In this document: positions 44,226 through 53,483 of the stretch, one piece after another
Layout: every line of letters begins with the position of its first letter
Numbering within the stretch: the first letter of the stretch is position 1
NCBI GenBank assembly: GCA_947073515.1
Contig: CAMTMC010000010.1
Coordinates: 1 to 58,386 of the forward strand
Source of the DNA: an uncultured bacterium
Lineage (GTDB): Bacteria; Bacillota; Clostridia; Oscillospirales; Oscillospiraceae
Length of the DNA stretch: 58,386 nt
Direction of reading: 5' to 3'
Notes under the pieces: generated by a model
The model's input: the letters and a program-made list of their open reading frames with translations, nothing else
Database searches by the model: none
What the model was told of the DNA's origin: nothing
Position numbers and translations under genes: made by a program

Positions 44226-45293
44226 ATGCGCAAGCTCATCATCGACAAGTCCGCGGTGAAGCACAATCTGGCCGTCATCAAGGAACGGGCGGCCGGGGCG
44301 GTGATCTACGGCGTCCTCACCGGGAACGGGGGCGGGGCCGGCGTTGTCCCGCTGGCCCAGCTCCTGCGGGCGGAGGGCATCGGCCGCTTCGCCGTATACG
44401 AGGCCAAGGAGGCCGAGGCCCTGCGCCAGGCCGGCTTTGTGGACGAGGAAATCCTTATGCTCCGCTCCACCACCGACCGGGAGGAGCTGGAGCGGCTGGT
44501 AGACCTGAGCGTGGTGTGTACCATCTCGTCGGTGGACACCGGCATGGCCCTCAACGCCCTGGCGGAAAACCGCTCCACCGTGGTGGAGGCCCACATCCAG
44601 GTGGACACCGGCATGGGCTTCGGCGGCTTCCTGGTGGGGGAGCCGGAGAAAATCCTGCTGGCCTACCGCTCCCTGCCCAACGTGGCCCTGTCGGGGATCT
44701 ACACCCAGCTCCACGCCGCCCGGCCCAACGACCCGGAGGCCAGGCAGCAGCTGGAGCAGTTCCATCAGGTGCTCTCCACCATCCACACCGCCGGGTTTGA
44801 GACCGGCGTGATCCACGCCGCCGGCTCCTTCGCCCTCCTCCACAACGACAGCGCCCTGCTGGACGGGGTACGGATCGGCTCGGCCATCCTGGGCCGGTGC
44901 CGCCGCACGAAGGACGACCGCCTGAAGACCGTGGGCTACTGTGAGGCCCCCCTGGCGGAGGTCCGCTGGCTGCCCAAGGGCCACACCATCGGCGCGGACA
45001 AGCCCGTCGTGCTGAAAAAGCCCACCCGGGTGGCCGTCCTGCCCGTGGGCTACCATAATGGCTTCGGGGTAATCCGCCCCCGGGAGACCGGCCTGCTGGC
45101 CCTGCTGGCCCAGTGGCGCCGGGCCAGGAGGCGCTCTGTCCGGGTAGGCGACCAGCGGGCCCCCCTGCTGGGCCCCATCGGCGCCACCGAGACCCTGCTG
45201 GACGTGACCCGGCTGCGGTGCTCCGCCGGCGACCTGGCCACCTTCGACCTGGACCCCCTGTTCGCCCGGGGCATGGTCATTGAATACCGCTGA
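44226..45293 (+). CDS. Alanine racemase-fold protein lacking the PLP lysine
   Basis: The 355-residue sequence follows alanine racemase from end to end (IIDKSAVKHNLAVIKERA start, QVDTGMGFGGF, GVRIGSAILGRC, LPVGYHNGFG). Key residues are gone. The PLP-lysine segment, usually AVVKANAYGHG, reads AVIYGVLTGNG, so Lys becomes Tyr. The usual DTGMxRxG arginine is absent (MGFGG). TH in the next motif is TQ. The GRVCMDQ-type loop is missing. The phosphate-side Arg (VRIG) and the GY tyrosine remain. It is probably not a PLP racemase; it may be a pseudoenzyme or have a new role. Next come an ATP-grasp ligase and a MurE-kinase fusion. The start follows AAAAAAGGGGGGCCGCGCC. Confidence 0.8.
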   Translation: MRKLIIDKSAVKHNLAVIKERAAGAVIYGVLTGNGGGAGVVPLAQLLRAEGIGRFAVYEAKEAEALRQAGFVDEEILMLRSTTDREELERLVDLSVVCTISSVDTGMALNALAENRSTVVEAHIQVDTGMGFGGFLVGEPEKILLAYRSLPNVALSGIYTQLHAARPNDPEARQQLEQFHQVLSTIHTAGFETGVIHAAGSFALLHNDSALLDGVRIGSAILGRCRRTKDDRLKTVGYCEAPLAEVRWLPKGHTIGADKPVVLKKPTRVAVLPVGYHNGFGVIRPRETGLLALLAQWRRARRRSVRVGDQRAPLLGPIGATETLLDVTRLRCSAGDLATFDLDPLFARGMVIEYR

Positions 45294-45656: not shown

Positions 45657-46874
45657 ATGGATAGCACTCAAAATTTCCAGCCCCTCCTGTTCGGAGGGGA
45701 CATCAACGTCTACTCCGTTGCCCGGGCCTTCCATGAGGCCTACGGCGTCAAGAGTATCGCCTATGGCAAGTACCCCTCCTTCCCCTGCCACGACAGCGCC
45801 ATCATCGACTACCGGGTCTGCCCGGACAACGAGAACCCGGAGATGTTCCGGGAAAATATCCAGGCCGTCTCCCGGGAGTTCTCCGACCGCAAGGTCCTTC
45901 TGCTGGGCTGCGGGGACAGCTACGTCCAGCTGGCAGCCCACTGCAAGGACAGCCTGCCGGGCAACGTGATCGCCCCCTACATCGACGGCGCCCTGCTTGA
46001 CAGCCTCATCAACAAGGAGACCTTCTACCAGCTGTGCGACCAGCACGGGGTGGACCACCCGGCTACCTTTATCTACGATAAGGCCACGGGCCACAACTTC
46101 ACCCTCCCCTGGGGCCCGCCCTACATCGCCAAGCCCGCCGACTCGGTGGCCTACTGGGCCTGCGGCGACCACTCCCTGGCCAAAGTCTACATCTGCCAGA
46201 GCTGGGAGGAATTGCTGGCCGCCCTGGACCACGTCTACGCCGCCGGCTACCCCGGCCACATGATCCTCCAGGAGTTCATCCCCGGGGACGACAGCTATAT
46301 GCGGGTGCTCACCAGCTACTCCGACCGAAACGGCCGGGTGACCACCATGTGCCTGGGCCACGTCCTGCTGGAGGAGCACTCCCCCCACGGCATCGGCAAC
46401 CACGCCGTGATCCTCACCGACCGGGACGAGGAGCTGGAGCGGAACATCAAGCGCCTGCTGGAGGCCCTGGGCTACGTGGGCTTCTCCAACTTCGATATCA
46501 AGTATGACAGCCGGGACGGCAAATATAAAGCCTTTGAGATCAACTGCCGCCAGGGCCGGAGCAACTACTACGTCACCGGAGCGGGCCACAACATCGCCAA
46601 GATGGTGGTGGAGGACCGGGTTTTAGAGCGGGACCTGCCCTTCCAGATGACCCAAAACCGCTCCCTGTGGCGGATGGTGCCCCGGAAGGTGGCCTTCAAG
46701 TTCACCCCCAGGAAGTACCATGAGGAGATGCGGGCCCTCATCCGGGCCGGGGCGGACAGCCACTCCCTGGTGTACCAGGGGGACAACTCCCTGAAGCGCC
46801 GCCTGCGGGTGCTGAAAAACCACCTGGGCAATATCAAGCGCTTCGACCAGTACAACAAGGTACCGGAGGAATAA
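45657..46874 (+). CDS. ATP-grasp carboxylate-amine ligase, D-aspartate ligase-like
   Basis: The 405-residue product is an ATP-grasp ligase resembling E. faecium AslFm, which adds D-aspartate to the lysine of peptidoglycan precursors. Similar features are FGGDINVYSVARAFHEAYG at the N-terminus (residues 13-31), LLGCGDSYVQL, and SLINKETFYQLCDQHGV (about residues 118-134). ATP-grasp residues appear in YIAKPADS, MILQEFIPGDDSY and the metal-binding FEINCRQGRSNYY (about 300-312). The amino acid and acceptor are unknown. AAAGAGGTCAATCT precedes the ATG. Its TAA stop abuts a remnant transposon end. Confidence 0.82.
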   Translation: MDSTQNFQPLLFGGDINVYSVARAFHEAYGVKSIAYGKYPSFPCHDSAIIDYRVCPDNENPEMFRENIQAVSREFSDRKVLLLGCGDSYVQLAAHCKDSLPGNVIAPYIDGALLDSLINKETFYQLCDQHGVDHPATFIYDKATGHNFTLPWGPPYIAKPADSVAYWACGDHSLAKVYICQSWEELLAALDHVYAAGYPGHMILQEFIPGDDSYMRVLTSYSDRNGRVTTMCLGHVLLEEHSPHGIGNHAVILTDRDEELERNIKRLLEALGYVGFSNFDIKYDSRDGKYKAFEINCRQGRSNYYVTGAGHNIAKMVVEDRVLERDLPFQMTQNRSLWRMVPRKVAFKFTPRKYHEEMRALIRAGADSHSLVYQGDNSLKRRLRVLKNHLGNIKRFDQYNKVPEE

Positions 46875-46890: not shown

Positions 46891-46903
46891 TGGAGTGATC
46901 TCT

Positions 46904-48184
46904 GTGGACAAAATCAAAGCTGACCCCTTGGCCCTGAACGCAGTCTTCCGGGCTGTTTTGAGGGGGGCCTCAACCACCCCCGATGACTTCAAACAGGCCA
47001 CTTTGGTGGACAAATTTTATCTGCTCTACCACGACTTCCCCGACTGGGCGGAGCCCACGCCCGGGGACTTCTCCATCCTGGGTATGCTGGAGAATATGCA
47101 CACCCTCCACTTCCCCAACGAGCCCAGCCGGGAGCCCATCCAGGTAGACAGCTTCTCTTTCCTGGCCCGGTGCCAAAAGCTAAAGGGCCTGGATGTGGGC
47201 TGTACCACCTTCTCCAACTGCTCCGCCCTCCTCCAGCTGCCCGCCCTGAAATACGCCCGCCTGCCCCCTAAAGAACAGCTCACCAACCTGGAGGCCCTGG
47301 AACAGCTCCCCAAAGGGGTCAAGGTGAGCTTCCTGGACCGGACGCCCTGGACGCCGGTGTTCAAGCCTGTGCCGCCCCCGCCTCGTGAGGAGCCCCAGGG
47401 CAGCGAGAGCGTCAAGGCCATTGTGGAGGAACTTAAGCGGCGCACAGCCATGGGCTGCTACAAGCTGACCGTCCAGCCCGATCCCGCTCCCAGGCTGCTG
47501 GACAGCAAGTTCGGCGGTTTCCCCTATTGGGACCCGGCCCTGCCCTACCCGGTGGACGAGGACGGTGAGAAGCTGGTGCTGCTGGCCCAGATCAATTTCG
47601 ACCAGTTCCCGGTGGACGCCCCCCTGCCCCAGGGCGGGATGCTCCAATTTTTCATCGCCCAGGACGACCTCTTCGGCATGGACAGCGACGGCGGCCACCG
47701 GGTGGTGTACCACGAAAAAATTGACCCCGCTGTTACCCGGGAACAGCTCGAAGGGCTGGATATTCCCACCGGCGAGGATGTGGAGTTCTTCCCGGTCTTC
47801 CAGGAGCTGGCGGTCACACTGGAAAAAACCACCGGCTATATGGGCCCGGCGGACGGGCGGTTTGACGCTCTCTTCGCCCAGGTGTACCAGGCTGTCACCG
47901 GGCATGCCCTGGAGCCGGCGAAACACCACGGGAACGCCTTAACGCGCGAGGACAACGACTATCTGTACGAACAGCTGGACACCGCTGGCCACCACCTGCT
48001 GGGCTACCCCTATTTTACCCAGTACGACCCCCGGGACGGCCTGTATGAGACGCTGCTGTTCCAGATGGACTCCGACGACCACATCCTCTGGGGCGACTGC
48101 GGGGTGGGCAACTTCTTCATAGACCTGGAAAAATTGAGACAGCGGGACTTCTCCGACGTGTTCTACACCTGGGACTGCTGCTGA
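46904..48184 (+). CDS. DUF1963 (YwqG-like) domain protein
   Basis: The C-terminal part (about residues 150-426) matches the DUF1963/YwqG family: KFGGFPYWDPALPYPVDEDG, LLAQINFDQFP and GMLQFFIAQDDLFGMD. The first 145 residues, with a leucine-rich SFLARCQKLKGLDVGCTTFS region, are not part of that domain and were not recognised. The family has no settled function. GGAGTG six bases before the GTG at 46904 supports this start. It lies inside the ligase cluster, 17-30 bp from its neighbours, so it is likely co-transcribed. Confidence 0.75.
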   Translation: MDKIKADPLALNAVFRAVLRGASTTPDDFKQATLVDKFYLLYHDFPDWAEPTPGDFSILGMLENMHTLHFPNEPSREPIQVDSFSFLARCQKLKGLDVGCTTFSNCSALLQLPALKYARLPPKEQLTNLEALEQLPKGVKVSFLDRTPWTPVFKPVPPPPREEPQGSESVKAIVEELKRRTAMGCYKLTVQPDPAPRLLDSKFGGFPYWDPALPYPVDEDGEKLVLLAQINFDQFPVDAPLPQGGMLQFFIAQDDLFGMDSDGGHRVVYHEKIDPAVTREQLEGLDIPTGEDVEFFPVFQELAVTLEKTTGYMGPADGRFDALFAQVYQAVTGHALEPAKHHGNALTREDNDYLYEQLDTAGHHLLGYPYFTQYDPRDGLYETLLFQMDSDDHILWGDCGVGNFFIDLEKLRQRDFSDVFYTWDCC

Positions 48185-48210: not shown

Positions 48211-50574
48211 ATGATACACACCCTGAATGACTACATCGCCCTGCTGGAGGAGCGGAACCTGCTGGCCGCCCCCATTCCCGGGGAAATTGACCGCTCCGCC
48301 CCGGTGGAGCTGGTGTCCTACGACTCCCGGGAGGTGGTTCCCGGCACCCTGTTCATCTGCAAGGGGGCCCACTTCAAGGCGGAATTTCTGGAAATGGCCC
48401 GGGAGAAGGGGGCCATCGCCTATGTGAGCCAGGCCCCCTACCCCCAGGTGGATCTCCCGGCGGTTCTGGTGAAGGACATGCGCCAAACCATCGCCCCCCT
48501 GGCCGACCTGTTCTACGGCCACCCCTCCGGGCGGCTGAAGGTCATCGGCCTGACCGGTACTAAGGGTAAATCCTCCACCGCATATTACCTGAAGTATATT
48601 TTAGACGAGTACGCCGCCGAGAGAAACAAGCCCGAAACCGGCGTCATCTCCTCCATCGACACCTACGACGGGGTAGAGCGGTTCGAGTCCCACCTCACCA
48701 CCCCGGAGCCCCTGGAGCTCCAGCGCCACTTCGCCCACGGGGTGGAGACAGGGATGGAGTACCTGACTATGGAGGTATCCAGCCAGGCCCTAAAGTACCA
48801 CCGCACCCTGCGCGCCGATTTCGCCGCCACCTGTTTTTTGAACATCGGCGCCGACCACATCTCTCCCATCGAGCACCCGGACTTTGAGGACTACTTCTCC
48901 TCCAAGCTGAAAATTTTCCACCAGGGGGCGGTGAACTGCGTCAACCTGGACTGCGGCCATGCGGATCGTATCCTGGATGCCGCCCGGGCGGCGGGGCGGC
49001 CCGTCCTCACCTTCTCCCAAAAAGATGAGGAGGCCGATGTATACGCCTCCCAGGTGCGCAAGCGGGGCCACGACATCCTGTTCCGGGTGCGAACCCGCCG
49101 CTTCCTCCGGGAGTTCCGCCTCACCATGCCCGGGCTCTTCAACGTGGAGAACGCCCTGGCCGCCATCGCCGTGTGCGAGGGGTTGAACATCCCCGAGCGG
49201 TGCGTCTACGTGGGCCTGATGAAAGCCCGGGTCCCCGGCCGGATGGAGGTCTACTCCAACGCCGACGACACGGTCACCGCCATTGTGGACTACGCCCACA
49301 ATAAGATGTCATTCGAGACCCTGTTCCGCTCCGTCCAGGCGGAGTACCCCGGCCGCCGGATCGTCTCCCTCTTCGGCTGTCCCGGTAAAAAAGCCCTGGA
49401 CCGCCGCCAGGATCTGGGGGAAATTTCCGGCAAATACGCCGACCTGGTGGTGCTCACCGAGGAGGACAGCGGGGAGGAGGACACCCTGTCTATCTGCCGG
49501 GAGGTGGCTGCCCACGTGGCCGCCCAGAACTGTGAGTACTCCATCGAGCCCAACCGGGGGGAGGCCATCCGCCAGGCCATCCTGGGCTGCCGGGAGCCCT
49601 CCGTCCTCCTCATCACCGGCAAGGGGGCGGAGACCCGCCAGAAGCGGGGCGCCGAGTATATCGACACCCCCTCCGACGTGGACTATGTCCACACCTTCCT
49701 CCGGGAATACGACCTGGCCCACGGCCTGGACGGCATGGAGAAGGTGCGCAACCTGCTGTCCATCCTGCCCGTTTTGAAGCGCCACGAGGGCAAGACCGTG
49801 GTGGTGAAGTACGGCGGCTCCGCCATCGGTGCGGAATCGGACAGGGACACCACCCTTCAGGATGTGGCCGCTTTGCGGATGGTGGGGATGCGGGTGGTTT
49901 TAGTCCACGGCGGCGGCAGGCACATCACCGCCCTGCTGGAACAGCTGAACATCCCCACCAAATTTGAAAACGGCTACCGGGTCACGGACGAGGCCGCCCT
50001 GGGGGCGGCGGAGCTGGCCCTGTCCGCCCAGGTGAACAAGGCCATTGTCCAGGACCTGGCCCGTCTGGAGGTGGCCGGGGTGGGTATCTCCGGCAAGGAC
50101 GGCCGGCTGCTCACCGCCACCGTCAAACACCCGGCCCTGGGCCGGGTGGGGGAGATCACCAGGGTGGAACCCAAGGTGCTGAACACGCTGCTGGACGCCG
50201 ACTTCCTGCCGGTGATCTCCCCCATCGCCCTGGGGGAGGACGGCGGCTCCCTCAACTGCAACGCCGACGACGCCGCCCGGGCAATCGCCGAGGCCCTGGG
50301 GGCCGAGCACTTGGTCTTCCTAACCGACACCGCCGGTATCCTCATCGACAGCCACAACGCCAAGACCGCCGTGGACCGCATGGATTCCAAACGGGCGGAG
50401 GAGCTCATAGAGACCGGCCTCATCGCCGGGGGGATGGTCCCCAAGGTCCGGGGCTGTGTCCACGCCGTCCGGTCCGGGGTGGGGGAGGTGTCCATCCTGG
50501 ACGGCCGGGGGGAGCACGTCCTGCTTCTGCATATGCTGGGGCAGCGGGCCTCCGGCACCACCATCACCGGCTGA
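48211..50574 (+). CDS. MurE-type Mur ligase fused to N-acetylglutamate-kinase domain
   Basis: One 787-residue polypeptide joins two complete enzymes. Residues 1 to about 490 form a Mur ligase of the MurE type: SYDSREV, P-loop GLTGTKGKSS (113-122), MEVSSQAL, NVENALAAIAV and VDYAHN. The amino-acid-selecting loop, DNPR in diaminopimelate-adding MurE, reads TEEDSGEED. Residues about 510-787 form an amino-acid kinase like ArgB: VVVKYGGSAI, LVHGGGRHI, CNADDAARAIAEALGA, GMVPKVRGCVHAV and the final DGR; the lysines and aspartate expected for catalysis are present. No stop or frameshift separates them. GTGAGGTGTACTCC precedes the ATG. Its pathway is unknown. Confidence 0.85.
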   Translation: MIHTLNDYIALLEERNLLAAPIPGEIDRSAPVELVSYDSREVVPGTLFICKGAHFKAEFLEMAREKGAIAYVSQAPYPQVDLPAVLVKDMRQTIAPLADLFYGHPSGRLKVIGLTGTKGKSSTAYYLKYILDEYAAERNKPETGVISSIDTYDGVERFESHLTTPEPLELQRHFAHGVETGMEYLTMEVSSQALKYHRTLRADFAATCFLNIGADHISPIEHPDFEDYFSSKLKIFHQGAVNCVNLDCGHADRILDAARAAGRPVLTFSQKDEEADVYASQVRKRGHDILFRVRTRRFLREFRLTMPGLFNVENALAAIAVCEGLNIPERCVYVGLMKARVPGRMEVYSNADDTVTAIVDYAHNKMSFETLFRSVQAEYPGRRIVSLFGCPGKKALDRRQDLGEISGKYADLVVLTEEDSGEEDTLSICREVAAHVAAQNCEYSIEPNRGEAIRQAILGCREPSVLLITGKGAETRQKRGAEYIDTPSDVDYVHTFLREYDLAHGLDGMEKVRNLLSILPVLKRHEGKTVVVKYGGSAIGAESDRDTTLQDVAALRMVGMRVVLVHGGGRHITALLEQLNIPTKFENGYRVTDEAALGAAELALSAQVNKAIVQDLARLEVAGVGISGKDGRLLTATVKHPALGRVGEITRVEPKVLNTLLDADFLPVISPIALGEDGGSLNCNADDAARAIAEALGAEHLVFLTDTAGILIDSHNAKTAVDRMDSKRAEELIETGLIAGGMVPKVRGCVHAVRSGVGEVSILDGRGEHVLLLHMLGQRASGTTITG

Positions 50575-51938: not shown

Positions 51939-53390
51939 TTAGATTGACGGACCTTCGCCGGTAGGGAGTTTTGGAGGATAAAATGTGGGAGCAAGTATGA
52001 GATTGAGCGGAGTCATAACGTATCGATCAGATCTTTTCTGCCAGAATGCATCCGTCCATGTTTTTTGTGGGCCGCCGATTAGATCTACCATCATATCCCA
52101 GCGGAGCAGAGGGCTGTTCAACTGACCCCAGCCTTTGATGGAAGTAACTATCTCATTGGTTTCTGTTACTTTGGATTCTATTGCGAGGGCCGCTGTATAG
52201 CCACATGTGAAGGCAGAAACATGATCCATTACTTTGACAAACTCAGTAAGCGGGATATACTCCTTCTTAAATACATCGCGGGAGCCAAGCAATCCATCTT
52301 GATTGCCTCCTGACATCCAGAGCGAGCCATCTTTCTTAATAATCGCCAGGGTTTCGATCCCCTGGTTAACAAGGCTGTTTGATATACTGTTTACAAAAGC
52401 TACATCCTCCGCAACCGTCTCTATCGGCAATGGCGAAGTAGGGCGAATCGGCTCCGGTAATATCCAATTCCCGTTTTCATCGACGGAATGGGGATCAACC
52501 TTTGTCATCCCGGCGTTAATTGGCCAAGTGATCAGCGTTCCGTCTGTCTTCAAAATGTAGGGATTTTCTTTAAAAAAAGGATTGTTTTCTGTGTCACGAA
52601 AATAGACAGAATCTACCTGATCCATGATTTTATAGGGAACAGTTTGGTAGGTTTCCCCCGGGGTATTGCCTTCATATAAACCTTGATTAAAAGCATTATT
52701 TCTTGCGTCTCCCCACATCCACAATTCCCCATTGGTTTTCACTGCCGCGGTACGGTTACCGTAACAGCTGACAGAAGCCACATCATCCATAACCTTTACC
52801 GGCGTTTTCTGTTCTGTTTTATATTCTCCATTTCCAATCTGCCCACAGTAATTTCTGCCCCACATCCAAAGAGAGCCGTCCGTCTTGATGGCGCCTGTGT
52901 GCGTTGTCCCGCAGCTGACAGCGGCTACATTATCCATAACTTTTACCGGAATCGGCTGAACGGCGCACTCACTTCCATATGGGCTGATATATGCAATACT
53001 CTCTCCTCCGTTTCCCAGCTGGCCAAAGTCGTTTCTTCCCCACATCCATAGAGTCCCGTCTGTCTGAATGGCGGCGGCATAAGGAGAGTGCCAGCCGGCA
53101 CTGATTGAAACAGAGCGTACATGCTCCATAATTTTCAAAGGTTCCTTTTGCCAGAAAGTATTTTCATCGTCCCCGTGATCCTGTGTTTTCCCAACGCCCA
53201 TCATCCCATACTGTGTCCGTCCCCAAATCCAAAGGTTGTCTTGGCGATCAATAAAAGCTGCCGTCTCACCTCCCGCCGACAGCACCACAGGCTTTCCGAC
53301 TGTACCGGGCTCATTGAAAGCCGAAGCGGGAATACACAGCGCAAAGGCCAATAACAACGCCAGAATCTGAGCTGCTGCTTTCCGTTTCAT
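51939..53390 (-). CDS. Secreted RCC1-repeat (beta-propeller) protein
   Basis: The 483-residue product has a signal peptide (MKRKAAAQILALLLAFALC, cleavage probably after PASA) and at least five RCC1-type repeats, each with an AAI/GAI..DGSLWMWG core, for example DGTLWMWGRNDFGQLGNG and DGSLWMWGRNYCGQIGNG. RCC1 repeats fold as blades of a beta-propeller and often mediate protein binding. The role here is unknown. The ATG at 53388-53390 follows GAGAGG; an upstream ATG would add eight basic residues. AT-rich codons contrast with the core genes. Two flavodoxin-like genes follow. Confidence 0.82.
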   Translation of the reverse strand: MKRKAAAQILALLLAFALCIPASAFNEPGTVGKPVVLSAGGETAAFIDRQDNLWIWGRTQYGMMGVGKTQDHGDDENTFWQKEPLKIMEHVRSVSISAGWHSPYAAAIQTDGTLWMWGRNDFGQLGNGGESIAYISPYGSECAVQPIPVKVMDNVAAVSCGTTHTGAIKTDGSLWMWGRNYCGQIGNGEYKTEQKTPVKVMDDVASVSCYGNRTAAVKTNGELWMWGDARNNAFNQGLYEGNTPGETYQTVPYKIMDQVDSVYFRDTENNPFFKENPYILKTDGTLITWPINAGMTKVDPHSVDENGNWILPEPIRPTSPLPIETVAEDVAFVNSISNSLVNQGIETLAIIKKDGSLWMSGGNQDGLLGSRDVFKKEYIPLTEFVKVMDHVSAFTCGYTAALAIESKVTETNEIVTSIKGWGQLNSPLLRWDMMVDLIGGPQKTWTDAFWQKRSDRYVMTPLNLILAPTFYPPKLPTGEGPSI

Positions 53391-53421
53391 CCATTTTCTT
53401 CCTCTCTTTATCATATTTGTC

Positions 53422-53477
53422 CCAACAAAGCCCCGAAGGGCGGGCGGGGGATACCCCCCGCCCGGGGCTTCTGTTGG
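53422..53477. other. Long GC-rich hairpin upstream of RCC1 gene
   Basis: CCAACA/TGTTGG, AAGCCCCG/CGGGGCTT and GGCGGG/CCCGCC arms stack into one hairpin about 56 nt long. It lies in the leader of the RCC1 gene on the minus strand. No U-tract follows. It may stabilise or regulate the mRNA, or be a mobile-element scar. Confidence 0.45.
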
Positions 53478-53483
53478 AAACAT

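Follow-up and report, generated by a model that had tools for sequence, protein, structure and literature searches.

Why should a ligase of cell-wall synthesis and a kinase of arginine synthesis be made as one polypeptide? The question is raised by a gene at 48211–50574 (+ strand) of the 58,386-nucleotide stretch analysed here (the window; contig CAMTMC010000010.1 of assembly GCA_947073515.1, Oscillospiraceae), on which coordinates are given unless another locus is named. The gene encodes 787 residues in a single continuous frame (ATG start, with an in-frame GTG nine bases upstream). It joins N-acetylglutamate kinase (NAGK, ArgB) to a MurE of the type that does not add diaminopimelate (DAP), the lysine/ornithine (Lys/Orn) type, hereafter MurE2. 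The answer we favour, with a probability of about one half and from comparison of sequences, is that a second, non-DAP MurE has been fused to an arginine-insensitive NAGK, which would secure the ornithine (or lysine) step for the wall.

The fusion is genuine, with a complete MurE-like ligase and a complete NAGK in one chain. The ligase half (residues 1–505, 48211–49725, +) is assigned as a non-DAP type MurE by profile, alignment, tree and a fold match to MurE; residues 31–484 match the murE subfamily model TIGR01085 with 295.6 bits (curated cut-off 257.3), and the ATP-binding loop GLTGTKGKSS (residues 113–122, 48547–48576, +) is evident from sequence and alignment. The complete NAGK half, residues 508–787, consists of an N-terminal helix (508–523, 49732–49779, +), recognised from the secondary structure of a model and from a residue table, in which arginine-site residues are altered, and the kinase domain (529–787, 49795–50571, +), identified by profile, residue table and fold match. 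Residues 529–762 match the argB model TIGR00761 with 235.7 bits (curated cut-off 151.3), and in the profile search the kinase half did not reach the cut-off of the LysW-type kinase models. The structure model of the whole chain has a mean predicted local distance difference test score of 90.5 and a predicted template modelling score of 0.66, the latter leaving the relative placement of the two halves uncertain. MurE structures align with model residues 1–501 as a three-domain fold, and NAGK structures possessing the N-helix align from 504 or 509 to 787; the last MurE helix (489–503) and the kinase N-helix are four residues apart in the model. The original prediction, made from the window alone, had seen one uninterrupted frame in which both halves keep their catalytic motifs. 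The frame is as described and, judged by profile cut-offs and the residue table, both halves look catalytic.

The architecture recurs, mostly in uncultured gut bacteria. In an order-level sample of 295 genomes (match threshold E ≤ 1e-100), 26 matched, seven of them across the entire fusion; in a family-level sample of 400 genomes, 85 matched, and 33 of these matches are full-length and spread over ten genera. The 33 rule out an assembly join of two genes, and a sequencing error, which the original prediction had named as what would undo it, is not the case. Three of the 85 (G683, G422 and G479) proved on inspection to keep a long open frame in which the kinase is broken. A quick tree built from 51 MurE2-type ligases and four of DAP type shows clustering of the fused state, with an unfused group placed inside the cluster next to fused rows. 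Losses of the fusion probably occurred. An unfused MurE2 is found, for example, in Clostridium aminobutyricum (L077).

The residue that the ligase half would add can be approached through its selector region, EEDSGEED (residues 417–424, 49459–49482, +), in which E418-D419-S420-G421 align with the DNPR of DAP-adding MurE. DNPR is found in none of 115 MurE2-type rows of the alignment, against 31 of 36 canonical rows. The five canonical-labelled rows lacking it are L085 and L087 (GDPG), L096 (poorly aligned), L190 (three residues only) and L217 (Deinococcus, ADHR); at L085 (11194) and L087 (11217) the sequence is another MurE-like ligase, some 2.7 kb past MurE2. The commonest selectors among the 115 are EDSG (27), DDPG (25), EDPG (16), EDPA (11) and EDAG (7), with Asp at position 419 in 114 rows and Arg at position 421 in none, and the window ligase has the acidic selector without Arg that marks Lys- or Orn-adding MurE. 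The original prediction was right that EEDSGEED replaces DNPR; the selector is, however, not unprecedented, its core being one form of a non-DAP motif that runs through all these rows, among them a ligase from Enterococcus faecalis (DDPA; its annotation reads L-lysine ligase) and one from Latilactobacillus curvatus (DDPG). The GTKGK loop, present in 115 of 115 MurE2 rows, is partly circular as a mark of the group because it had served as a search pattern, and its lysine also occurs in 11 of the 36 canonical rows. Passages of a study of Staphylococcus aureus MurE describe the Asn and Arg of DNPR as holding the extra carboxylate of DAP in DAP enzymes; the lysine-type S. aureus enzyme lacks the Arg, has an acidic pocket and takes ornithine with a specificity 400-fold lower (PMC3829189). 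The residue added by the ligase half is probably not DAP, as had been predicted, and family and motif point to a basic diamino acid, L-ornithine being the likeliest and L-lysine the alternative.

The original prediction raised the matter of separate murE and argB genes in the same genome, and both are present. A canonical murE with DNPR stands in a division and cell-wall cluster with mraZ, rsmH, mraY, murG, ftsZ and a gene for a SpoVD/FtsI-like penicillin-binding protein (below its model cut-off), and an intact argB adjoins argC, argJ, argD and argF (ornithine carbamoyltransferase), as named by curated models. The two kinds of ligase gene can also be neighbours: at L064, L065, L067, L069, L070, L076, L079 and L080, the genome's DAP-type (DNPR) MurE comes after MurE2. 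Since the cluster with the DAP-type murE looks complete, a standard wall needs no second MurE, and MurE2 might make, instead of peptidoglycan, a dedicated peptide that is a natural product or some component of the envelope as yet unknown. We regard this as improbable. Five Actinobacteria (G308–G312: Collinsella, Enorma, Gleimia, Arcanobacterium and Olsenella) have a single MurE match each, of MurE2 type, and the other 24 genomes of the same search have two; as the five were reached via their MurE2 loci, the sole match is taken to be the MurE2 gene. MurE2 would thus serve as the MurE where it is alone, and must there serve the wall, and as an additional copy elsewhere, which supports ligation onto UDP-N-acetylmuramoyl (UDP-MurNAc)-L-Ala-D-Glu. 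Partner domains near MurE2 in relatives (Asp/Glu racemase, asparagine synthase and FemAB) are likewise of cell-wall kinds. Actinomyces walls contain L-Lys or L-Orn according to passages of two reports (PMC11382707, PMC6113628); these passages name no wall type for Collinsella.

The kinase half appears to be a catalytically intact NAGK. Seven positions that we take to be catalytic or substrate-binding (E. coli K8, G44/45, R66, N158, N160, D162 and K217) are unchanged in the alignment in all 12 fused kinases compared, three of which are near-identical. The arginine site has fared differently. In 26 intact free ArgB proteins the N-helix always has an aromatic residue after Leu-Pro, against none of the 12 fused kinases; Glu occupies the Glu19 position in 23 of the 26 against one of the 12, and the C-terminal Glu of the site is present in 26 against three. 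The window kinase has Ser for Glu19, Val for the aromatic residue and His for the C-terminal Glu, and keeps the arginine-site His. Residue numbers of the Corynebacterium crenatum enzyme were placed on the alignment by what we take to be their equivalents, and the presumed His26 position does not separate free from fused kinases. The N-terminal helix of arginine-inhibited NAGK is present in the structure model, and the arginine-site residues of that class are mostly replaced. According to passages of a review, the arginine site of C. crenatum NAGK is formed by Glu19, His26, Arg209 and His268, and changes of Glu19 relieve inhibition most (PMC10464499). Erosion of the arginine site with retention of the catalytic positions predicts an arginine-insensitive NAGK, and arginine feedback would have been lost in the fused kinase.

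In a kinase tree the 12 fused kinases lie on one side of a branch (Shimodaira–Hasegawa-like approximate likelihood ratio test 100), with the 26 intact free ArgB, three broken ArgB and one degenerate NAGK-like protein on the other. The idea that the fused kinase is the sole NAGK of its host was not borne out: a second NAGK match occurs in 35 of 39 genomes with an intact fusion (13/13, 7/8 and 15/18 in three samples; in G295 a contig end truncates the fused copy, and the repeated G000 was counted once). Draft gaps are likely in the other four, of which G345 has argC and a partial argJ, G574 argC and argJ, G684 a partial argC and no argJ, and G478 neither. No second NAGK match reaches the cut-off in any of 16 MurE2 genomes that lack the fusion (8, the 5 Actinobacteria and 3).

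What happens when the fused kinase decays is informative about its substrate. The kinase half is decaying in five distinct genomes, G296 (L060), G297 (L061), G300 (L066), G422 and G479; G683 is the same genome as G296 (identical NAGK coordinates and scores) and was counted once. Each has one ArgB with lost motif residues (HGGG changed to HGGT, HGGR, HGIG or HGMG) and another that is intact. In the genes read, the broken one is that of the old arg cluster. The broken ArgB genes of the five genomes (L199 3111–3962, L200 8169–9020, L201 7588–8442, L244 and L245) look like cases in which an arg-cluster gene has been replaced. The intact second ArgB of G296 and G297 lies inside a second argC-argJ-argB-argD cluster; second clusters were inspected by eye in these two genomes and partly in G300. 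The broken-ArgB pattern was expected for G422 and G479 from the first three genomes and was found in both, and no broken free ArgB occurs among the 13 intact-fused genomes whose motifs were read. An extra intact ArgB seems to release the old ArgB and the fused kinase alike from selection, and this joint decay fits N-acetylglutamate, not a wall peptide, as the substrate.

The original prediction had suggested that kinase and ligase carry out stepwise acyl-phosphate chemistry on a peptide, the kinase acting on a carboxylate of the ligase product or of another wall peptide. Physical fusion to a peptide ligase would suit such a role, and the kin enzyme LysZ, whose fold is related (3wwn is among the fold matches), acts on a carrier-bound substrate. 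We nevertheless give it very little credence: TIGR00761 is matched above its cut-off and the LysW-type models are not, the NAGK positions are invariant, and in all five genomes decay of the kinase accompanies a broken old ArgB and an intact one from another branch. Mur ligases, moreover, generate their own acyl phosphate with ATP, which counts against a kinase-assisted scheme.

The decaying copies bear equally on whether the kinase half serves the ligase mainly by oligomerisation or as a sensor, with catalysis secondary, which we consider highly unlikely. The N-helix is kept in the model, and parts of it and of the C-terminus can still be read in the in-frame remnants, as such a role would predict. 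Against it, catalytic positions stay fixed while arginine-site positions drift, and the remnants diverge fast. For the remnant pair L060–L061 the kinase has 52% identity and a ratio of nonsynonymous to synonymous substitution rates (dN/dS) of 0.68, against 81% and 0.24 for the ligase; between the window and the L060 remnant the kinase value is 0.83. Loss of the catalytic motifs and of half the length is a stronger sign of decay than these ratios. Among three close genomes dN/dS is 0.03–0.07 for the kinase and 0.05–0.08 for the ligase, and between the window and L062 or L063 it is 0.21 or 0.13 for the kinase and 0.29 or 0.11 for the ligase.

Upstream of the fusion lie a gene for an AslA-like ATP-grasp carboxylate-amine ligase (45657–46874, +; open frame from 45408, homology from about 45657), which resembles lactobacillar D-aspartate ligases, and one for a protein with the Pfam domain DUF1963 (46895–48184, +). 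The gaps of 20 and 26 bases between the three genes suggest one transcript. In the order-level sample the ATP-grasp gene is present in 21 of the 26 MurE2 genomes against 24 of the 269 others, some of which may hold a more distant MurE2 below the threshold; in the window's family the counts are 14 of 14 against 0 of 12. Of the 21 genomes, 19 have it on the contig that carries MurE2, no more than 4 kb away. Among the 33 records that match the ATP-grasp protein in a plasmid collection are genes from L. curvatus and L. fermentum (carboxylate--amine ligase) and from L. crispatus (hypothetical protein), with 34–37% identity over 96–98% of the length, a likeness to annotated genes. An amino acid racemase is encoded directly upstream of the L. 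curvatus gene, and none adjoins that of L. fermentum. For the window protein Pfam gave no match (two relatives have sub-cut-off matches), NCBIfam matched only far below cut-off, and a PDB search gave none with phmmer and E = 0.0003 or weaker with a profile.

Gene content was compared across 80 named MurE2 loci, which are the best 80 of 426 relatives and many of which stop at contig ends. The ATP-grasp gene occurs in 29 of them, a racemase in 22, asparagine synthase in six and FemAB in two; 33 have at least one of these and 47 none. The racemase stands between ATP-grasp and MurE2 in 20 of the 80, and on contig C28 the window genome encodes a racemase that shares 41% identity with its L059 counterpart. 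Passages of a review describe a D-Asp cross-bridge set of AslA (an ATP-grasp protein), racD (in the same operon in L. lactis) and AsnH, and give L-ornithine as the third wall residue of L. fermentum (PMC4155827). We infer that ATP-grasp, racemase and MurE2 would be parts of a system for an Orn/Lys-D-Asp wall peptide, the ATP-grasp enzyme adding D-Asp. Further upstream, at 44226–45293 (+), is a gene for an alanine-racemase-like protein without the pyridoxal phosphate (PLP) lysine. Such a gene precedes ATP-grasp in four of the 80 named loci as well as the window (L059 3050–4114, L060 3705–4769, L061 2395–3459 and L062 2273–3337), and in all five rows the lysine is replaced (VLTG[ND]GGG against VKANAYG in an alanine-racemase-like protein of L200). 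It is possibly a non-racemase PLP enzyme or a pseudo-enzyme of the module.

We propose that the MurE2 half would extend UDP-MurNAc-L-Ala-D-Glu with L-Orn (or L-Lys), alongside the genome's ordinary, DAP-adding MurE, and that the ATP-grasp enzyme would add D-Asp to the side-chain amine of this third residue. D-Asp would be supplied by the aspartate racemase, encoded between the two genes in many relatives and on contig C28 in the window genome. The kinase half would convert N-acetylglutamate to N-acetylglutamyl phosphate regardless of arginine, at times when the free ArgB is inhibited, and the products of argC, argD and argJ would carry this on to ornithine. Fusion would couple the making of the third wall residue to its use, possibly with channelling. 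In its most specific form, which we put forward tentatively and think a little less probable than even, the cell runs two parallel peptidoglycan precursor lines (DAP and L-Orn-D-Asp), the fusion being the arginine-blind entry enzyme of the second, with ornithine made independently of the arginine pool.

Several observations weigh against this proposal. The preference for ornithine over lysine rests chiefly on the fusion to NAGK itself. In the plasmid collection the ligase half finds its best annotated matches in Collinsella (40.9%) and in the L-lysine ligase of E. faecalis (38.0%), the latter being the nearest enzyme for which a substrate is stated; the Deinococcus MurE, presumably of ornithine type, is only 27–29% identical. 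Three of the five MurE2-only Actinobacteria (G308, G310 and G311) have no NAGK match, and MurE2 may add lysine there. The ligase part alone is covered in 49 of the 85 family matches (classed by match extent). Also adverse are the arginine-site His, kept in 10 of the 12 fused kinases (26 of 26 free ArgB); the five cases of kinase decay, which may share a single origin (the tree allows this, with weak support) and count as one or two events; and the racemase, which is not beside the fusion in the window, where the DUF1963 gene occupies the position that the racemase has in relatives. Finally, the intact pair G173–L068 has a dN/dS of 0.76 for the kinase, as high as in remnants, and 0.31 for the ligase, so that dN/dS is here a rough measure.

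The lysine ligase, the Actinobacteria and the ligase-only matches together favour an alternative in which the same ligase adds L-lysine, and the kinase, as an additional NAGK for arginine or ornithine metabolism, has expression or assembly in common with the ligase and does not supply its substrate. We judge this rather unlikely. That ten genera retain the fusion and that its arginine site is eroded is better explained by a supply role than by chance joining. In the 13 genomes with an intact fusion whose free ArgB was read, that ArgB is intact, so that arginine synthesis alone would not need the fused kinase.

Each part of the proposed ornithine-supplying fusion is of a known kind; the combination and the predicted role are new. 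Compared with Lys/Orn-type MurE (the E. faecalis L-lysine ligase; S. aureus MurE, PDB 4C12/4C13), which have DNPA or DDPA, the window ligase has EDSG, is a second copy beside a DAP-type MurE and is fused to a kinase. The kinase resembles the hexameric arginine-inhibited ArgB (PDB 2BTY, 2BUF and 2RD5) in its TIGR00761 match, N-helix and unchanged catalytic positions, and differs in being joined to a Mur ligase and in its N-helix and C-terminal arginine-site positions. Like the AslA/RacD/AsnH module of lactic acid bacteria, the neighbourhood combines ATP-grasp and Asp/Glu racemase, with asparagine synthase in some relatives; unlike it, the module is joined with its own MurE2 gene, its racemase is displaced in the window and its activity is a prediction. 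Other fusions (MurF-Alr and MurE-MurF, which are NCBIfam model names, MurC-Ddl and MurB-MurC) likewise unite a Mur ligase with another enzyme in one chain, and since Alr and Ddl make wall-peptide substrates, MurF-Alr (by its model name) and MurC-Ddl (PMC4803751) are precedents for a ligase joined to a substrate-making enzyme. None of these links a Mur ligase to the arginine/ornithine pathway. No MurE-NAGK fusion came up in searches of the open-licence literature of PubMed Central, in agreement with the original prediction, which knew of none.

If the proposal is true, arginine/ornithine supply would be tied directly to wall chemistry, and Orn-D-Asp or Lys-D-Asp muropeptides would be expected in those gut Clostridia whose genomes have a DAP-type murE as well. 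DAP muropeptides are NOD1 ligands. Wall type helps to decide which host sensors see a bacterium, and it would be of consequence if gut bacteria had a second one. The fused kinase would be a naturally evolved candidate for an arginine-insensitive NAGK, and the name 'DAP ligase' on MurE2-type genes, for example in Collinsella aerofaciens, would be put in doubt. At L213 (5884–7446) of that species a non-DAP-type MurE adjoining asnB is annotated as 2,6-diaminopimelate ligase, a database name that is likely misleading.

Two further proteins were noted. The window encodes a 514-residue RCC1-type repeat protein at 51939–53483 (−). At L205 (6261–6941), Claveliimonas bilis, whose genome has a normal ArgB, encodes a free-standing, strongly diverged NAGK-like protein in a frame of 270 residues without NAGK motifs.

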